Shown: positions 1 to 6,531 of the stretch, in pieces
How the letters are laid out: each line of letters opens with the position of its first letter
Numbering within the stretch: the first letter of the stretch is position 1
NCBI GenBank assembly: GCA_937873665.1
Contig: CALMYW010000409.1
Span: 1 to 6,531, forward strand
Length of the DNA stretch: 6,531 nucleotides
Source: an uncultured Sphingorhabdus sp.
GTDB taxonomy: Bacteria; Pseudomonadota; Alphaproteobacteria; Sphingomonadales; Sphingomonadaceae
Reading direction: 5' to 3'
Program-made: the position numbers and the translations under genes
The notes under the pieces: generated by a model
Told to the model about the DNA's origin: nothing
The model's input: only the letters and a program-made list of their open reading frames with translations
Databases searched by the model: none

Positions 1-8
1 ACGCAGGG

Positions 9-65
9 GGTCATCAGGCCGGATGAAGCGCTATCCATAAGCTGGCGTAGTCCGGCCTGATGGCC
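9..65. repeat. Long inverted repeat at the left end, upstream of the recombinase operon
   Basis: A perfect 12-bp inverted repeat, CATCAGGCCGGA at 12-23 and TCCGGCCTGATG at 51-62, is separated by a 27-base spacer (24-50) that is less GC-rich than its surroundings. Allowing one T.G mismatch, the arms extend to 15 positions (9-23 and 51-65). No T-run follows, so it does not look like an intrinsic terminator. Its place just outside a recombinase operon fits a recombinase-binding or attachment-site arm, or an operator for the operon. The spacer is longer than the 6-8 bases between core sites of classical tyrosine recombinases. The repeat is certain; the role is inference. Confidence 0.7.
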
Positions 66-103
66 ACCGTCCCGCAGGCGCGCAACGGGTGCGTTCTGGA
101 TTC

Positions 104-124
104 GGGAGGGGGTCCGGGGGAGGG
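104..124 (+). promoter_or_regulatory. G-quadruplex-forming motif over the ribosome binding site of the first recombinase gene
   Basis: Four guanine runs on the + strand read G3-A-G5-TCC-G5-A-G3, with loops of 1, 3 and 1 bases. This meets the usual G3+N1-7 rule for an intramolecular quadruplex. The last two runs supply the only Shine-Dalgarno-like sequence (GGAGGG, 119-124) of the gene starting at 136. If it folds in mRNA it would hide the ribosome binding site. The motif is seen directly; folding and regulatory effect are inferred. Confidence 0.5.
119..124 (+). promoter_or_regulatory. Ribosome binding site for the first recombinase gene
   Basis: GGAGGG lies 11 bases before the GTG at 136. 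It decides the start: the frame has a TGA at 58-60 and no ATG, GTG or TTG between that stop and 136. The next candidate, TTG at 154, has an AGGGG only 2 bases away, which is too close. Confidence 0.55.
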
Positions 125-135
125 ACTGGCAAGCT

Positions 136-1527
136 GTGGATATTTCAGGGGCCTTGATCGTTATCCAGGAACGCCGCGCAGCGGATGGCCTGGACGCCTA
201 CATTCCGGTGATCCTGCGCGAGGAGGCGATCTATGATCCGGACCTCGATCGCTTCTTCCTGGACCTGCCGCTGAACGGCGCGCGTTCGCGCCACTCGCTG
301 CGCGCGCATGGCTACGATATTCTGGTCTGGGTTCGTTTCCTGGGCTCGGTCCGTGGCAAGACTGTCTGGCAAGCCGATGCCGATGATGTCGGTGCTTATT
401 ATCGCGCGCGCCGGCGCAGCGATGCGGAGTTCCGGATTTCCGCATCGACGTGGAACCGGGCGATTGCCTCGCTGGACAAGCTATACCGCTGGGCCGCAGT
501 CGAAGGCTTGGTCGAACGCACCCCATTTACCCACCGGCAGGTGTGGCGAAGATCATACGGGGGCCGTCGCGCTGCCATTGCCGGTCGCAACGAAGCCTAC
601 GAGCGCGCTGCCCGCCGGTCCGATGTCCGCTTTGTCGATCTGGCCGACTACCAGGCCTTTCGGGACGTCGGACTGCGTGGCCTGACCGTCGAGGGAGCCG
701 AGCGCCCCGGAGCACGCGACCGCAATGGTGCGCGCAACGCGCTTTTCGCGGACCTGCTGGTCACGACCGGATTGCGGCTCGAAGAAGCTTCCTTCCTGCT
801 CGCCGCCGAGATTCCCGTTGGGGATGCGCGCGCAGAGCGCCAACGCCGGGTCGAGCTTCCAGCGGCGCTGACCAAGGGTGATCGCGGCCGTACCATCCTG
901 CTGCCACGCCGACTGCTGTCGGCATTCGATGCCTACATGGCGGTTGAGCGCGCTTCGGCCGTCTCCAAGTTCACGGCGCGCAGAGGCTGGGATGCCATCG
1001 AACGCCCGATCTTCATACATCGCCCACCACTGCTGCCGACCGTGATGCATCTGGTTGGCGGCGGCACTATGGATATGGAAGTCGTCACCCCCGACGAGCG
1101 GGCAAGGTTTGTCATCTGCGCCGACGATGGCACGCCATGTGAAGCTGCCGTCCTGTGGCTTACCGAGGTCGGGCATCCTGTGCTCCCCAACTCATGGGAA
1201 GCGATCTTCGCCCGGGCGAGCCGCCGCTGCGCGGATGCGGGCATTCCCGTTCGCGTCAGCCCCCATCAACTCAGGCATTCCTTCGCTGTTCACATGCTGG
1301 CGATGCTGATCCAGCGCCGCCTCGCCGAAGCAGCCGCACCGGCAGGCGCCATGGAAGGCTATCGCCAGTTGCTCGGCGACCCGCTTCAGCAGGTGCAACG
1401 CCTGCTCGGCCATTCCAGTCTTTCCACCACGTCGATCTATCTCGATCATCTTGCTACCCGCGCCGATACCGTCGATGCGGCGGTCGAAGAGTTGCTTGCG
1501 CGCGTGCCGGGATACCTCCCGGCATGA
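136..1527 (+). CDS. Tyrosine-type site-specific recombinase/integrase, first of three (GinA-like)
   Basis: This 463-aa protein is predicted to cut and rejoin DNA through a 3'-phosphotyrosine intermediate, moving the element into and out of its site. The N-terminal core-binding (SAM-like) region spans roughly residues 45-130 and the catalytic domain roughly 195-455. All catalytic positions are visible: Arg214 in TGLRLEEA, Lys247 in LTKGDRGR, His377 and Arg380 in HQLRHS, His426 in LLGHSS and the nucleophile Tyr435 in SIYLDH. An insert of about 60 residues (285-345) separates the Lys strand from the HxxR box, making it longer than XerC/D (about 300 aa). The start is GTG; no in-frame ATG occurs before residue 268. 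It overlaps the next gene by ATGA. Family membership is secure. The GinA likeness rests on size, order and coupling. It is the best candidate for the strand-cleaving subunit. Confidence 0.93.
   Translation: MDISGALIVIQERRAADGLDAYIPVILREEAIYDPDLDRFFLDLPLNGARSRHSLRAHGYDILVWVRFLGSVRGKTVWQADADDVGAYYRARRRSDAEFRISASTWNRAIASLDKLYRWAAVEGLVERTPFTHRQVWRRSYGGRRAAIAGRNEAYERAARRSDVRFVDLADYQAFRDVGLRGLTVEGAERPGARDRNGARNALFADLLVTTGLRLEEASFLLAAEIPVGDARAERQRRVELPAALTKGDRGRTILLPRRLLSAFDAYMAVERASAVSKFTARRGWDAIERPIFIHRPPLLPTVMHLVGGGTMDMEVVTPDERARFVICADDGTPCEAAVLWLTEVGHPVLPNSWEAIFARASRRCADAGIPVRVSPHQLRHSFAVHMLAMLIQRRLAEAAAPAGAMEGYRQLLGDPLQQVQRLLGHSSLSTTSIYLDHLATRADTVDAAVEELLARVPGYLPA
1503..1526 (+). promoter_or_regulatory. 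Hairpin that sequesters the start codon of the second recombinase gene
   Basis: GCCGGGA (1506-1512) and TCCCGGC (1517-1523) form a perfect 7-bp stem with a TACC loop. The stem extends through T1505-A1524, G1504.U1525 and C1503-G1526, so all three bases of the AUG at 1524-1526 are paired. No Shine-Dalgarno sequence precedes this start. The arrangement predicts that the second gene is translated mainly when ribosomes finishing the first gene melt the stem and reinitiate at the ATGA. The base pairing is seen; the coupling mechanism is inferred from known termination-reinitiation systems. Confidence 0.6.
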
Positions 1528-3311
1528 CCGGCTCACCCAGGAAGGGGCGCAAGGTCAGCTTTGAGCAAGACGGTGCAACGCAGGGTGCCGATCCCTGGGA
1601 TCAGGTCAGTGCGCTGCGCTTCACTATCGATCCCCCATACGGCGGCGGGGTGCTGGTCGATTTCACCACCCTGCGCCCGCGTGGCCTCGCGCTCGCCTTT
1701 GCCCGCGGCCTGTTCTCGTTGGTTGCGCCGCGCGGGCCGATCATCGTGCGGACGACCGTCAAGGCCTATACCAACACACTGCCGCGCTTCTTCGCCTACC
1801 TCGCGACGACAACGGACCGGATCGATGGCCCTGCGGACCTGCGCGCCCGTCATATCGACGGCTTCGAGGCCTGGCTCGAAGCTGCGGGCAAGTCGCGGGT
1901 GCATCTTCCCACCGTGGTCGCCAAGATCGTTGCCGTCCTTCGCCGGATCGCTACCGATACGGCGGGTGCCATCCACCCCGAGCTTCGCGAGCGGCTGCGC
2001 TACGTCAGTTCGCACCCCCATGTGAGGCCGCGGCCGCGCGATGCTTACAGCCCGTTAGTCGCCCGCCAGCTCCGCGACGCGGCACGCGCCGACCTTGCCG
2101 CCATCGATGCGCGGTTGCGTGCTGGCCCCCGGTTCGACGAAGTTCCTGAGATCGAGGCTGCGACCCGAAGAGCCCATACGGCCATCGAAGCACGCGGGGT
2201 GCTGTACTATCGCGATGCCGAGTGGCAGGCGCTCCACCGGCGATTCCGGAGCCGCAACATGCCGGCTCCGGACATGAACATCAGCCTTCACGCAGCCCAT
2301 CACCTCACGGCTGCCGATATCGTGCCGCTGCTCGTTCTGCTCTCGCTGGAGACCGGGCTTGAACTCGAGTGCTGCAAGACGCTCACCATCGATTGCCTGC
2401 GCAATGCCTCGGGCGGAACCGTGGACATCGCCTATATCAAGCTTCGCGCGCACGGCGCTGAACACAAGACTATCCGGGTGCGCGACGGCGGCTCGACCAC
2501 GCCGGGCGGCCTGATCCGGCGCATCATTGCACACTCGGCCAAGGCGCGGGCGCATAATCCTTCCGATTGCCTGTGGGTCTATTATCAGCACGGCGAGATC
2601 GCCGACGGCATTCGCCATCCCCGCTCGACCATCGACGCCTGGACTGCTCGGCACGGTATCGTCGATGATGCAGGCACGCCGCTCTATCTGCGCCTCTCCC
2701 AGCTGCGCAAGACGCACAAGGCCCTTTGGTACCTCAAGACCGAAGGACACATGACCCGCTTTGCTGTCGGGCATACGGTCGAGATTGCCGCGCGGCATTA
2801 CGCCGATGTCCCGTCGCTGCGGCCATTGCACGAGCAGACCGTCGTAGATGCTCTTGAGGAAGCTGTTGCAGGTCCGCGGCTACTGCCACCGCTTGAGGAA
2901 GCGCAGCTACGCGATTCCGTTACAGACCCCGATTTCCGCGGCACTGACGATACCATTGCGCTGCTCGACGGCGAGCAGGACGTCTGGCTCGCGAGCTGCG
3001 CCGGTTTCTATACCAGTCCGTTTAGCACCGCCGGATCGCCATGCCCGACACCGTTCTGGGGCTGCCTCGATTGCCGCAACGCCGTCATTACCGCGCGCAA
3101 GCTGCCCGCCATCCTCGCGTTCCTGGCCTTCATCGACGAGCAACGCACCGCGATGGGCCAGGCCGAGTGGGCCGCCAAGTTCGGCCATGCCCATGCACGC
3201 ATCGCCCGTCAGATCCTGCCCGCTTTCGGCGATGACGTTGTGGCGCAGGCCCGCACGCAGATCGCAACTCATCCTCCCGCGCTCTACCTTCCGCCTGAGG
3301 CACGGGCATGA
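1524..3311 (+). CDS. Tyrosine recombinase-like protein, second of three, with altered catalytic set (GinB-like)
   Basis: This 595-aa protein has a core-binding region at about residues 74-160, a basic helical linker, and a catalytic-like domain at about 262-445. The end of the catalytic domain is clear: Arg395 in LSQLRK, His417 in VGH and Tyr426 in ARHYAD, with the same H-x8-Y spacing as its neighbours. Two positions differ from the canonical set. The first Arg is Glu280 in ETGLELE, and the His of HxxR is Ser392. Lys306 or Lys315 may serve as the beta-hairpin Lys. The tail carries four cysteines (492, 507, 514, 517; C-x14-C-x6-C-x2-C), a plausible zinc site. The ATG at 1524 is chosen because it overlaps the previous stop as ATGA; the frame stays open upstream to 1155, but that stretch lies inside the first gene. 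It probably assists in recombination, perhaps in DNA binding or assembly. Confidence 0.88.
   Translation: MTGSPRKGRKVSFEQDGATQGADPWDQVSALRFTIDPPYGGGVLVDFTTLRPRGLALAFARGLFSLVAPRGPIIVRTTVKAYTNTLPRFFAYLATTTDRIDGPADLRARHIDGFEAWLEAAGKSRVHLPTVVAKIVAVLRRIATDTAGAIHPELRERLRYVSSHPHVRPRPRDAYSPLVARQLRDAARADLAAIDARLRAGPRFDEVPEIEAATRRAHTAIEARGVLYYRDAEWQALHRRFRSRNMPAPDMNISLHAAHHLTAADIVPLLVLLSLETGLELECCKTLTIDCLRNASGGTVDIAYIKLRAHGAEHKTIRVRDGGSTTPGGLIRRIIAHSAKARAHNPSDCLWVYYQHGEIADGIRHPRSTIDAWTARHGIVDDAGTPLYLRLSQLRKTHKALWYLKTEGHMTRFAVGHTVEIAARHYADVPSLRPLHEQTVVDALEEAVAGPRLLPPLEEAQLRDSVTDPDFRGTDDTIALLDGEQDVWLASCAGFYTSPFSTAGSPCPTPFWGCLDCRNAVITARKLPAILAFLAFIDEQRTAMGQAEWAAKFGHAHARIARQILPAFGDDVVAQARTQIATHPPALYLPPEARA
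3297..3300 (+). promoter_or_regulatory. Ribosome binding site for the third recombinase gene
   Basis: GAGG sits 7 bases before the ATG at 3308, inside the end of the second recombinase gene. The third gene therefore has its own Shine-Dalgarno site as well as the ATGA overlap, unlike the second gene. Confidence 0.5.
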
Positions 3312-5515
3312 CTGCCATCGCGTCACAGACCACAGCGACCGATGATCGTGATGCCTTGCCGGTGCTTATTTCCGGGGCCCTGCGCCCCGGCTTCGATCGT
3401 GCGGACCTCTCGTGCTACGGCGATCCGAGCTGGGACCTCTCGCCCGGCGTGTTTCGCGACAATGCAAGGCGCTGCCACGTCACCGTGCATTTCGGCGGCA
3501 TCGAAGATCCCGCCATTGCCGATGCGCTGCGCCAGTTCCTCCATGCACGGCTCAACACCGACCTGCCAGGGCATCGCCGCAAGCTTGAGCCGGCGGCGGT
3601 GCGGGGCGAGGCGAACCGGGCCCTGCGCTTTTTCAACTTCGTGAAGGCGGAGCTTGGCCGTTTCGATCTTTCACCGGTCGATCAGCCACTCGTCGACCGC
3701 TTTGCGCGCTCGTTGCGCACCGCCGGGCTGCGTCCGGTGGCAGCTGCAGATTTGCTGCGCGTGATCTTCGACCTCCACGAACTGCGTCGGCACCTGCCGA
3801 CTGCGCGCCTTTCCTTTGAGCCATGGCCGGAACGCAACACGTACTCTGTGGCAGGTGCCAGGCACATCGCCGGCGAGAACCGGACGCCGCGCATTCCCGA
3901 AGAGATCATCACGCCGCTTCTGGCCTGGTCGCTGCGCTACGTGACCCACTTTTCTGGCGATATCCTTGCCGCGCGCGGGGAGCTTGATCGCCTCGAAGCG
4001 AGGCGCAACCGGTTGCTCGCACAGGAGGCCGGACTCGATCCCATCATCCGGCGAGCGCGGCAGCGCCGGCGCCTCAACGCATACATAGCAACCTTGCGGC
4101 GACAAGGCCGCGGTATTCCCATCTGGACCAACTCCCACAATGGTACGACGCGGACCGATCAGCGGACCGGCGAGGTCACGCCGCCGATCAACTACCATCT
4201 GATGCACCTGCACGCCGGCATCGATGCACAGTCCGAGCCGGCCATGCATCTTGGACTGACCACCGGTGCGCCGGACCTGATTGCGGCTGCCATCGACGAG
4301 CTGGGCACGGAAGATGGCGGCATGGATACGCCGATATCGCTCGACCCGACGAGCAGCTTGCCATGGCGGCCTCGCTTCGATGCGAAGGCGCTCGCGCTGG
4401 AGGAAGCCATGCTTCAGGCTGCGGCCTATGTCGTTTGCGCCTACCTCTCGGGCATGCGCGACAGCGAGTTGCAGGCCATGCAGCGCGGTTGCCTGCAAGT
4501 GGTCAGGGCCGAAGACGGCGCCATCCTTCGCCACCGCATCCGGTCGATCGCCTACAAGGGCAAGCTCGGTCGCGGCGAGGAGGCCGAGTGGGTGACGATT
4601 GCACCGGTCGCCGAAGCGGTGGCCGTGCTCGAGCAGCTGTCCGCGCGGGCCGGACGCGCACGCGGGACCACGACGCTGTGGCCGGTCCTCGCGCTCAGGG
4701 TCAACACCAAGACCCATGTGTCCTCGGAGATTGTCCGGCAACTGAACCGCTTCCGCGACCATCTCAACGATCGGTTCGGTTCAGATATTGCCCCGGTCAT
4801 TCCCCTAGGCCCTGCCGGGGTGCCATGGCGGATCACCACCCGGCAGTTTCGCCGCACCATCGCCTGGCATATCGCCAACCGCCCCTTCGGCACGATTGCC
4901 GGCATGATCCAGTACAAGCACGCCAGTGTCGCCGCGTTCGAAGGCTATGCCGGGAGCAGCCGGTCGGGTTTTCGCGGCGAAGTCGAGGCGCAGCGGGCAC
5001 TCGGCCAGATCGACGATATCCTTGTCTATTTCGACGAGCGGCAAGGTGGCGCGCGCCTTGGCGGCCCTGCTGCATACCGCGTGGGAGCAGCGCTGGATGA
5101 CGCCGCCGATCTGTCACCGCTTCCAGCCATGATTGCCGACCGGGCGCGTCTGCGCACGATGCTCGCAAGTCTCGCGCGGACCTTGCACGTCGGGCCGCTG
5201 GCTGACTGCTTCTTCGACCCCGCTACCGCGCTCTGCCTCAACCGGATCACCGAACCGGGCCCGCCCGCGCCGATGATCGCCATGTGTGAGCCGGTCCGCT
5301 GTCCCAACGCCTGCATCGCTGAGCGGCATCGTCCGGCTTGGCAGCGCGGGGCCGACGAGGCGCGCGCACTGCTTTGCGAGAAGCGTCTTCCTGAGCCGCA
5401 GCGCGTCACGCTGCAAGCAGAGGTGGCACGGATCGAAGCTGTCCTCGCCCAGATCGCGCCAGGTGCCGCCACACCGGCTTGCGGTGTGGCGGGAGAGGAG
5501 AGGGGCCGATTTTAG
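3308..5515 (+). CDS. Tyrosine recombinase-like protein, third of three, large (GinC-like)
   Basis: This 735-aa protein is about twice the size of an ordinary integrase. A core-binding region lies at about residues 65-165. A long insert (about 180-350) contains a very Arg-rich, probably helical stretch near 220-268. The catalytic domain spans about 360-575, with Arg384 in SGMRDSE, Lys417 in AYKGKL, Arg515 in RQFRRT, His538 in YKHAS and nucleophile Tyr547 in EGYAG. The His of the HxxR box is replaced by Arg512. The tail has cysteines at 634, 643, 660, 665 and 669 plus His674, a candidate zinc site, followed by an amphipathic helix (about 676-716). The ATG overlaps the preceding stop as ATGA and has a GAGG site. 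Recombinase family membership is secure. The GinC label follows from size and position, and the exact role in the trio is unknown. Confidence 0.9.
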   Translation: MTAIASQTTATDDRDALPVLISGALRPGFDRADLSCYGDPSWDLSPGVFRDNARRCHVTVHFGGIEDPAIADALRQFLHARLNTDLPGHRRKLEPAAVRGEANRALRFFNFVKAELGRFDLSPVDQPLVDRFARSLRTAGLRPVAAADLLRVIFDLHELRRHLPTARLSFEPWPERNTYSVAGARHIAGENRTPRIPEEIITPLLAWSLRYVTHFSGDILAARGELDRLEARRNRLLAQEAGLDPIIRRARQRRRLNAYIATLRRQGRGIPIWTNSHNGTTRTDQRTGEVTPPINYHLMHLHAGIDAQSEPAMHLGLTTGAPDLIAAAIDELGTEDGGMDTPISLDPTSSLPWRPRFDAKALALEEAMLQAAAYVVCAYLSGMRDSELQAMQRGCLQVVRAEDGAILRHRIRSIAYKGKLGRGEEAEWVTIAPVAEAVAVLEQLSARAGRARGTTTLWPVLALRVNTKTHVSSEIVRQLNRFRDHLNDRFGSDIAPVIPLGPAGVPWRITTRQFRRTIAWHIANRPFGTIAGMIQYKHASVAAFEGYAGSSRSGFRGEVEAQRALGQIDDILVYFDERQGGARLGGPAAYRVGAALDDAADLSPLPAMIADRARLRTMLASLARTLHVGPLADCFFDPATALCLNRITEPGPPAPMIAMCEPVRCPNACIAERHRPAWQRGADEARALLCEKRLPEPQRVTLQAEVARIEAVLAQIAPGAATPACGVAGEERGRF
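5466..5492 (+). other. Strong 11-bp hairpin at the 3' end of the third recombinase gene
   Basis: CCGCCACACCG (5466-5476) and CGGTGTGGCGG (5482-5492) pair perfectly around a 5-base GCTTG loop. It lies within the last 20 codons of the recombinase gene. It is followed by purine-rich DNA and, 17 bases later, a short T4 run (5510-5513), so it is at best a non-canonical terminator or attenuator between the recombinase genes and ardC. It could also block 3' exonucleases or bind a protein. Structure is certain at the sequence level; the role is unknown. Confidence 0.5.
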
Positions 5516-5516
5516 G

Positions 5517-5561
5517 GTGACGGATTGAAGGAGCGGGAAAGAGATTCCCTCCGGCCGTCGC
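5517..5561 (+). promoter_or_regulatory. Structured leader of ardC
   Basis: The whole spacer before ardC can fold as one imperfect hairpin. GUGACGG (5517-5523) pairs with CCGUCGC (5555-5561) with one G.U pair. An asymmetric internal loop comes next, then GGA (5530-5532) with UCC (5550-5552), a 2-base bulge (5533-5534), and GGGAA (5535-5539) with UUCCC (5545-5549) around an AGAGA loop. The stem ends directly against the GGAG ribosome binding site at 5562. It could be a cis-acting translational control element or a protein-binding site. I do not recognise it as a named RNA family. Confidence 0.45.
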
Positions 5562-5565
5562 GGAG
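5562..5565 (+). promoter_or_regulatory. Ribosome binding site of ardC
   Basis: GGAG lies 7 bases before the ATG at 5573 and starts directly after the leader stem. It supports 5573 over the in-frame TTG at 5525, which lies inside the leader and would add 16 charged residues not expected in the family. Confidence 0.65.
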
Positions 5566-5572
5566 ATATCCC

Positions 5573-6475
5573 ATGACCCGGACCCATCCGACAGCCGAGC
5601 GCGCCGACGTCTATTCCCGCATCACCACCCAGATCGTTGCCGCCATAGAAGCCGGTGCCGGCGACTGGCGTATGCCCTGGCATCACGACGGTGCGGCCAC
5701 CACGCGGCCCCAGAACGTGACCTCGCGCAAGCGCTACCGGGGAGTAAATGTGCTGGCATTGTGGATCGCTGCTGAGGCCAGCGCATATTCCAGCGGGCTG
5801 TGGGGCACCTACCGTCAGTGGGCCTCGCTCGGGGCCCAGGTCTGCAAGGGTGAGCACGGCACCACCGTCGTGTTCTGGAAGCAGGCTGCATCGCGCGCCG
5901 AGGATGATCGTGATGACGCAGAGGCAGGTCCTGGCCGCATGTTCGCCCGCGCGTTCACGGTATTCAACCTTGCCCAGGTCGAAGGATACGAGCCCGAGCC
6001 GGTGGCACAACTGCCCGAGAGCGAGCGCTTCGGACACGCTGATGCATTCGTCGAGGCACTGAAGATTCCGATTACGGAAGGCGCCTATGATGCCCACTAC
6101 CGGATCGACCTTGATCGCATCTTTATGCCAGGCTTCGCCAGTTTTCGCGATGCATCGGCGCACATGGGCACCCTGCTGCACGAGGCGGCCCACGCCACAG
6201 GGGCCAAGCACCGGCTCGACCGCAACTTCGCGGAGCGGTTCAAGCGTGACAGTCTTGCGATCGAGGAGATTTGCGCCGAGCTGACCGCCTCGTTTGTCCT
6301 CGCTGACCTCGGCATCGCGCACCATCCGCGCCCCGACCATGCCGCTTACGTCGCCTCCTGGCTCCGGGCGCTCAAGGATGATCCGCGCGCAATCTTCACT
6401 GCCGCCAGCAAGGCTCAGGCCGCCGCTGACTGGATGCACGCTCAGCAGCCTCAGTCCGAGGAGATCGCAGCATGA
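5573..6475 (+). CDS. ardC: ArdC-family antirestriction protein with zincin-like metallopeptidase domain
   Basis: This 300-aa cytoplasmic protein has the two-part ArdC architecture. The N-terminal ArdC_N domain (about residues 10-135) shows the typical string of motifs: YSRITTQIVAAIEAG, W-x-MPW at 32-36, P-x-N at 46-48 and YRGVNVLAL at 55-63. This domain in ArdC and in RP4 TraC1 binds single-stranded DNA. The C-terminal zincin-like domain (about 155-290) carries HEAAH at 203-207, with Glu204 as catalytic base, and the helix EEICAEL at 231-237, whose Glu231 or Glu236 probably provides the third metal ligand. ArdC of IncW plasmids helps transferred DNA evade host restriction in the recipient. 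Length is normal for the family and no key residue is missing. It lies 57 bases after the recombinase trio and overlaps the following reading frame by ATGA. Whether the peptidase is active, and on what, is not known. Confidence 0.93.
   Translation: MTRTHPTAERADVYSRITTQIVAAIEAGAGDWRMPWHHDGAATTRPQNVTSRKRYRGVNVLALWIAAEASAYSSGLWGTYRQWASLGAQVCKGEHGTTVVFWKQAASRAEDDRDDAEAGPGRMFARAFTVFNLAQVEGYEPEPVAQLPESERFGHADAFVEALKIPITEGAYDAHYRIDLDRIFMPGFASFRDASAHMGTLLHEAAHATGAKHRLDRNFAERFKRDSLAIEEICAELTASFVLADLGIAHHPRPDHAAYVASWLRALKDDPRAIFTAASKAQAAADWMHAQQPQSEEIAA
6460..6463 (+). promoter_or_regulatory. Ribosome binding site of the gene after ardC
   Basis: GGAG within GAGGAGAT lies 8 bases before the ATG at 6472 and inside the end of ardC. 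This good spacing is the main reason for calling a gene there. Confidence 0.45.
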
Positions 6476-6531
6476 AACCGGGTCGGGAAAATGCTGCTGG
6501 AATTCACATTGGGGCTGGACTGTCAGGATAT
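6472..6531 (+). CDS. Partial unknown gene, cut by the right edge, ATGA-coupled to ardC
   Basis: The frame opens with an ATG overlapping the ardC stop as ATGA and stays open for 20 codons to the window edge. It has a well-placed GGAG site and repeats the coupling style seen between the recombinase genes. The visible N-terminus is Gly- and Ala-rich (begins MKPGRENAAG) and matches no family I know. Third-position GC is low and the 60 bases are 50% GC, unlike the genes before it. That could mark a gene of different origin, or mean that the true start is the ATG at 6491 in another frame (begins MLLEFTLGL). Moderate to low confidence. Confidence 0.4.
   Translation, partial: MKPGRENAAGIHIGAGLSGY

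Follow-up and report, generated by a model that had tools for sequence, protein, structure and literature searches.

The stretch of DNA analysed here (the window, 6,531 nucleotides), from an uncultured Sphingorhabdus sp. (genome G000), corresponds to bases 1-6531, minus strand, of contig C36, which is 6,589 bp long. It carries three genes for recombinase-type proteins (A, B and C) and an anti-restriction gene of the ardC type, all head to tail, in an element that we interpret as a transposon with ardC genes as its target. Its features are listed below, with protein lengths in amino acids (aa) and expectation values given as E.

1..6531, + strand: the element (bases 59-6589 of 6589; contig overlaps)
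136..1527, + strand: gene A, 463 aa, GTG start; tyrosine recombinase with the full R-K-HxxR-H-Y set (Pfam PF02899 and PF00589, motifs)
1524..3311, + strand: gene B, 595 aa; protein with a recombinase fold that has Glu for the first catalytic Arg and lacks the box II His (motifs, invariant columns, Foldseek)
3308..5515, + strand: gene C, 735 aa; large recombinase with R, K, second R, H and Y kept and Arg in place of the box II His
5573..6475, + strand: element-borne ardC, 300 aa from ATG; PF08401 and PF18818; phmmer match to R388 ArdC (6i89/6sna), E 2e-51
6179..6193, + strand: HExxH metal-binding motif (HEAAH) of the carried ArdC, from the translation
6263..6283, + strand: EEICAEL in the carried ArdC, the homologous counterpart of the insertion site
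6511..6531, + strand: right terminal repeat GGGGCTGGACTGTCAGGATAT, an imperfect inverted copy of the left end

An earlier note on this DNA had described three dissimilar recombinase genes joined by ATGA overlaps, and open reading frame (ORF) calls, motifs and Foldseek agreed with this for both the A-B and B-C junctions. The ORF calls also bore out its statement that no small gene follows the third recombinase: the ATG of ardC, at 5573, lies 57 bases past the C stop (a longer ardC frame, with a TTG start at 5525, encodes 316 aa). For the window, Rfam gave 0 matches and a promoter scan found 0 against 0.9 expected.

Among A, B and C, Pfam identified a tyrosine recombinase in A alone; B and C had no match at E 0.001, and PDB sequence searches with B and C profiles gave 0 matches at E 1. 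In C, residues Arg384, Lys417, Arg515, His538 and Tyr547 were kept in all 17 aligned relatives, with the box II His changed to Arg. In B, Glu occupies the position of the first Arg and Ser that of the box II His, while the second Arg, the His and the Tyr are kept (columns invariant, 15 relatives). The 35 best Foldseek matches of the B model (predicted local distance difference test score, pLDDT, 69; predicted template modelling score, pTM, 0.46) were all tyrosine recombinases, including Cre, the Tn1549 integrase and archaeal Xer. The top match had E 2.6e-4 and a probability of 1.00, yet the TM-scores were low, about 0.2-0.35. The predicted structure of C (pLDDT 60) was not used further. Profile-profile comparison gave E 0.0098 but a probability of 4% for A against C, and E 0.063 for A against B, neither of which was significant. 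In alignments of the relatives, all three genes stay open and conserved. The middle protein had no Arg in the aligned first-Arg column in 8/8 trios, whereas A and C had Arg there; in the Pseudomonas putida trio, an Arg of the middle protein sits one residue before that column. The window A and C matched the A and C of seven other trios at E 3.6e-6 or better, and B matched its counterpart in six of the seven, the B of the Vibrio trio not being matched.

The left end of the element, TTATCTGGACAGTC (= TTATCTGGACAGTCTGCACC), starts 58 bp ahead of window base 1 on the same contig, and the right end, GACTGTCAGGATAT, lies at window base 6531. Together they form an imperfect inverted repeat with 13/20 positions identical (chance about 4e-4). 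The left 90-95 bp of C36 recur at the ends of contigs C29, C24 and C38, and the right 90-95 bp at the ends of C19 and C34. The overlap of three left and two right contigs with its ends shows C36 to be a collapsed repeat that has three or more left flanks; a search of the genome contigs for a third right flank found only C19 and C34. Each left flank consists of the 5' part of an ardC-type gene and each right flank of a 3' part. A paralogous A-B-C-ardC block in the same order is present on contig C15 (identities 63, 53, 64 and 60%), and C matched 279 plasmid records, 132 of them over at least 80% of its length. Because the C15 paralogue shares the order and 279 plasmid records match C, a chance arrangement of these genes is disfavoured. 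C was also matched in 14/98 sampled near genomes, and there was one partial match among 50,697 phage records. The exact right-end pattern, scanned in 385 genomes of the class, matched in its own genome only.

Relatives came from two sources, 30 plasmid regions and GTDB genomes, of whose 218 relatives the best 80 were used. The counts reported here use 110 loci, i.e., the window element, the C15 block, 28 plasmid regions and 80 genome loci, with L154 and L160 as comparators only. Analyses of the flanks indicated that the ardC genes hit by relatives are interrupted at the two codons that follow EE-[L/I], next to a metal ligand. The metal of R388 ArdC is coordinated by H201, H205 and E229 (PMC7213743), and alignment of the element ArdC to that protein placed the core at the second and third codons after the metal ligand. 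A frame check covered 69 left flanks of at least 30 bp, the three G000 contigs included, before the last eight plasmid regions were joined. In 57 of the 69, the frame read HExxH...EExxA and ended exactly at the element. Six of the other 12 ended in EE-x-xA, with another insertion at HExxH (L043, L066, L079, L085, L099, L123); L068, L121 and L146 were too short for the full frame but ended in the motif, L063 had another gene there (EELKA), L088 had no visible ardC, and L145 was masked.

A stricter test required an open frame of at least 40 aa for left halves (n = 70) and of at least 35 aa for right halves (n = 76), and compared them to 23 intact ArdCs from relatives of the order, six element-type copies among the fetched loci having been set aside. 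Intact ArdCs were matched by 69/70 left halves, all 69 of which ended at the Ala of EE-x-[xA], and by 73/76 right halves, all 73 of which began one residue before that Ala. No match was obtained for either half of L145 or for the right halves of L060 and L063. The left flanks of L063 and L088, both of which we count as exceptions, were excluded by the length rule.

The insertion is flanked on both sides by 6 bp (the codons xA), and the left and right copies mostly differ. A plain target-site duplication was rejected as the rule, with cores differing in 52/67 loci, though equal cores exceed chance. The right core equalled the left core of another copy in the same genome in 13 of 25 cases from ten multi-copy strains and G000; permutations gave a mean of 3.0, and 13 was reached in 0/5,000 trials. 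For example, CGGGCC is the left core on Tardibacter pHSL3 and the right core on pHSL4, and GTGGCG is the left core on Sagittula unnamed2 and the right core on unnamed3. Cores other than Ile/Val-Ala were found in 11/78 right copies vs 3/76 left copies (one-sided P 0.029; L060, L063, L088 and L145 excluded). These patterns fit a strand-biased exchange in which the donor's 6 bp would usually land at the right end, with some opposite outcomes (L066, L158). As such they would represent the 'att-brought-in' signature of Tn554-like elements and SEs; the donor-core rule was demonstrated experimentally for SEs (PMC9345347) and for Tn552-II (PMC12486829). In nine of the ten multi-copy strains the copies were identical (0 mismatches) throughout their first 5,400 bp. 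Seven of these nine have their copies on different plasmids and two have them on one contig; the pair in the tenth strain belongs to two lineages.

The expectation that kindred elements possess a small fourth gene held for distant relatives. Those with 30-45% C identity (Bosea, Sinorhizobium pSinA, Mycolicibacterium, Sphingobium YG1 and Streptomyces) carry a gene of 122-146 aa that overlaps C and encodes a helix-turn-helix (HTH)-like part and a coiled coil. Pfam matches of these proteins were weak (HTH families and others, DUF6262 in 2/6 members, best 2.3e-5). A ginD-like profile built from six of them matched a gene of the Pseudomonas putida trio, which was outside the profile set (E 1.7e-12), and weakly matched the Vibrio trio (9.4e-4). 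Beside C in the closer loci the profile found none; its sole other match in these loci fell within an L034 transposase of the IS3 type, well away from the element. Nor did the profile find a ginD homologue further along the element, and the suggestion that ginD lies elsewhere was unsupported, the best match in G000 (E 0.036, inside a 350-aa frame) not being accepted. Fusion of ginD to A, B or C was also considered and rejected: no D-like segment was found, and the protein lengths resemble those of relatives possessing the small gene. The GinD function may nevertheless be built into another protein.

A phylogeny of 29 C proteins grouped the 21 whose loci lack the small gene in one clade (bootstrap 99; Shimodaira-Hasegawa-like approximate likelihood ratio test, SH-aLRT, 97). 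One change suffices for the absence on this tree, in which several outgroup branches are very long, and a single loss would explain the lack of the small gene from the clade. Judged from the sequence-identical copies in nine strains, the clade looks recently mobile and appears to have stayed mobile. In one member, L126 (Paracoccus, 5,719 bp), A, B and C are open and no other gene of at least 90 aa precedes the right end. The distant Bosea relative has both the small gene and ardC, and itself sits in ardC. On pLA1, a second, distant trio with a 147-aa ginD-like gene (L039 6236-11400, minus strand) adjoins a first element and ardC genes.

Pfam identified the fourth protein of the window element as ArdcN plus MPTase-PolyVal, and in 97/110 loci an ArdC match was situated behind C, before the right end (or contig end). 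The loci without it were L058, L063, L091, L092, L094, L106 and L126 of the clade (other cargo or none), the distant L060, L061, L062 and L067, and L089 and L090, which are cut by a contig end. ArdC is therefore a common but replaceable cargo, with a match in 97 loci and none in 13. The observation that ardC follows the trio thus stood, whereas the treatment of ardC as a mere neighbour did not: the gene is inside the element and homologous to the target gene.

Together, we consider it very probable that the window is nearly the whole of a 6,589-bp site-specific transposon (A, B, C and ardC) that inserts at the core of ardC genes, most likely via a circle bearing the left core, and that encodes no GinD-, TnpC- or Srap-like protein. 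In the mechanism that we propose, the trio would join the element ends into a circle holding 6 bp from the old left flank, with A and C carrying out strand exchange and the degenerate B serving as a DNA-binding or structural partner. The circle would then recombine with the two codons, usually Ile/Val-Ala, that form the 6-bp core of an ardC immediately behind its metal-binding motif, EE-[L/I]. The target ardC is cut in two, and the carried ardC may stand in for it. Carried and split genes share an orientation because the site is asymmetric.

Several observations weigh against this interpretation, whose weak points are the partner role of B and the rescue by ArdC, both of which we infer. The seven clade members listed above carry no ArdC, L063 lies in another target gene, and neither the left flank of L088 nor the right flank of L060 shows ardC. 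The loci are not independent, as several strains supply two or three copies. Left and right cores were equal in 15/67 loci with both readable, above the 6.8 of permutations (P 0.0014), so that some insertions look like a duplication or the product of a donor with the same core. The left and right flanks of G000 cannot be paired, and its two core matches could therefore fall within one copy. The reciprocal pairs L043/L066 and L155/L157 could equally stem from recombination between copies. A circular-junction pattern had 0 matches in viral contigs, and the C24 flank, searched in plasmids for an empty site, had no match.

The note had assigned the trio to the GInt type. Like GInts, the element inserts site-specifically and has at one end an operon of three recombinase-type genes, followed by cargo; its distant relatives have a ginD-like gene. 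The assignment was not upheld: GInts are described as having RHRHY in GinA and GinB and no first Arg in the third protein, GinC, whereas here the first-Arg-less protein is the second, as in SEs; in addition, the element is without ginD, and its target is ardC vs ssb or an ABC transporter gene in GInts (PMC5385486). Gene order and catalytic pattern follow SEs, not GInts. SEs share the order of an ordinary recombinase, a degenerate middle protein and a large recombinase (PMC10214605), as well as imperfect terminal inverted repeats; in SEs the donor bases of the 6-bp core are placed on the right (PMC9345347, PMC10214605), a pattern that the core counts suggest here. They have srap as a fourth core gene (PMC10214605), probably lacking in the window element, which has neither a small gene nor a ginD-like match, and they differ in a middle protein, Tfp, said to lack catalytic residues, whereas B keeps Arg, His and Tyr, and, by description, in reported hosts (Gammaproteobacteria) and in target. 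Tn554-like elements carry the donor att to the right end, as the core comparison suggests for this element, and Tn552-II has a target-gene-like cargo, tgl, as a proposed rescue (PMC12486829). However, they have two recombinases plus TnpC vs three recombinase-type genes and no tnpC-like gene here, and the core of Tn552-II is 7 bp rather than 6 bp (PMC12486829). RIT elements (ritABC) likewise have three overlapping recombinase genes, and some hit the same ardC genes (L043, L066), but their proteins in these loci are about 310-360 aa and their sites are at the HExxH codons, upstream. Window B and C had no match in RIT-type trios, and A had a short weak match only (E 0.009 for L066; E 1.6e-4 for L034 and L035). 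With the families compared by description, we would assign the element to a new family within the SE/Tn554/GInt superfamily, one that targets ardC and lacks ginD; of the options raised in the note, a distinct three-integrase family fits best. Among the open-licence literature matches listed, titles and abstract openings described neither ardC as an insertion target nor an ardC-targeting trio without a small gene.

Alternative explanations centre on the missing fourth gene. A degenerate GInt that lost ginD and persists as an immobile, plasmid-borne relic would accord with the absence of ginD from the window element and with the requirement for all four gin genes in Pseudomonas GInts (PMC5385486). 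We regard this as highly improbable, because A, B and C are open and conserved across relatives, and sequence-identical copies at different places in nine strains, together with the donor footprints, disfavour an inactive element. A true GInt sub-family, with the ginABCD machinery and lineage minus ginD, is an unlikely reading, although it is favoured by the three-gene core, by the homologues of the small gene in sister lineages (including the P. putida trio, which has no assigned class and matches the window trio weakly) and by the Alphaproteobacteria being among the hosts named by the GInt authors (PMC5385486). It is opposed by the position of the first-Arg-less protein and by a later survey, which reported no ginC-ginD blocks in Alphaproteobacteria (PMC10214605).

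It could also be proposed that ArdC replaces GinD, its single-stranded DNA-binding domain acting as the fourth recombination factor and so accounting for an ardC behind C. ArdC does bind single-stranded DNA (PMC7213743), an ArdC match follows C in most loci, and a host or plasmid ArdC may act in trans where the element has none. The clade members without ArdC, including the trio-only L126, and the presence of a ginD-like gene and ardC together in Bosea make this role distinctly unlikely. Somewhat less doubtful is that another small or host-encoded protein fills the GinD role in trans, as related elements require, or benefit from, TnpC, Srap or GinD; the failure to find a ginD homologue in G000 speaks against it, and we rate it as possible but not probable.

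The codons of the carried ardC raised a further proposal. Its core, TGCGCC (6272-6277), encodes Cys-Ala, whereas targets mostly have Ile/Val-Ala. The 90 readable element-borne cores read TA (32), CA (30), CV (23), VA (2), and SV, LV and TV (one each), so that 88/90 were without Ile/Val-Ala, vs Ile/Val-Ala in 21/23 intact ArdCs of other types. We tentatively speculate that this is a 'disrupt and rescue' transposon, which splits ardC at a constrained codon pair while its own ardC is recoded at the 6-bp core and so tends to escape, and for which the three recombinases suffice without a GinD, TnpC or Srap partner. The recoding part is opposed by the phylogeny. On a 197-row tree, two changes are enough to separate element-borne ArdCs from the others, and since element-borne ArdCs are largely one clade, shared ancestry may explain the core difference; over the tree as a whole, no fewer than 12 changes are required for the Ile/Val core state. 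Of the 120 nearest ArdC homologues, 117 were readable and 20 read Ile/Val-Ala. Also opposed to recoding are right cores of the element type, TGCGCC in four cases and ACCGCC in one, which suggest, from their sequence, past insertion into element-borne ardC genes. The same cores weakened absolute self-immunity of the carried ardC, which was rejected.

A GinD/TnpC/Srap-free clade that by appearance was recently mobile and includes a trio-only member makes the ability of the trio to act alone testable. The many natural insertions at one codon pair provide comparative evidence for the donor-core rule of SEs and Tn552-II. The target is an anti-restriction gene that aids plasmid entry into new hosts, so the element should influence which ArdC a plasmid makes; in G000, a PF18818 search gave 11 matches, and the two that span the whole model, i.e., the full-length ArdCs found, are both element-borne. 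Cargo homologous to the target gene and core exchange are already known, as SE-6283, which inserts in bcp and carries bcp (PMC9345347, PMC10214605), and Tn552-II with tgl are precedents. With the present element there are three cases in which the cargo includes a homologue of the target gene, and this suggests a strategy general to the superfamily.

Other insertions were observed in these ardC genes and, for related or RIT-type trios, in other genes. RIT-type trios with smaller recombinases are annotated at the HExxH codons of the same ardC genes in L043 (2477-5398) and L066 (1535-4457) and, via a common end sequence, were also inferred in the left flanks of L079, L085, L099 and L123. With RIT-type trios at HExxH, two active-site motifs of ardC serve two three-recombinase families. 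Two Sagittula plasmids have RIT-type trios inside 'strawberry notch' helicase-type genes (L034 24858-28440, L035 25727-29309). On an Agrobacterium Ti plasmid (L063), a relative sits in another gene at a comparable codon motif, with its left end at 4605, its right end at 13047, EELKA before it and RAELRN after it. Reverse-transcriptase genes of the group II intron type break the same ardC genes upstream of the element in L038 (9378-11279, around ArdC residues 134-150), L042 (4478-6307), and L156 and L157 (280-2331). In G030, of the same genus, at least 7 ardC halves end at PF18818 position 82 (contigs C8, C57, C66, C100, C101, C102 and C152), which suggests many insertions at that position. In the right flank of C34 (L057) and in L078, L114, L139, L141 and L142, the 3' part of ArdC is broken by another insertion at about the end of '...HWMK/LWRGEH'; this is probably the trace of a further element that has a fixed site in ardC, and in C34 it carries the common sequence GGCGAGGTGAGCATAACTTGG.

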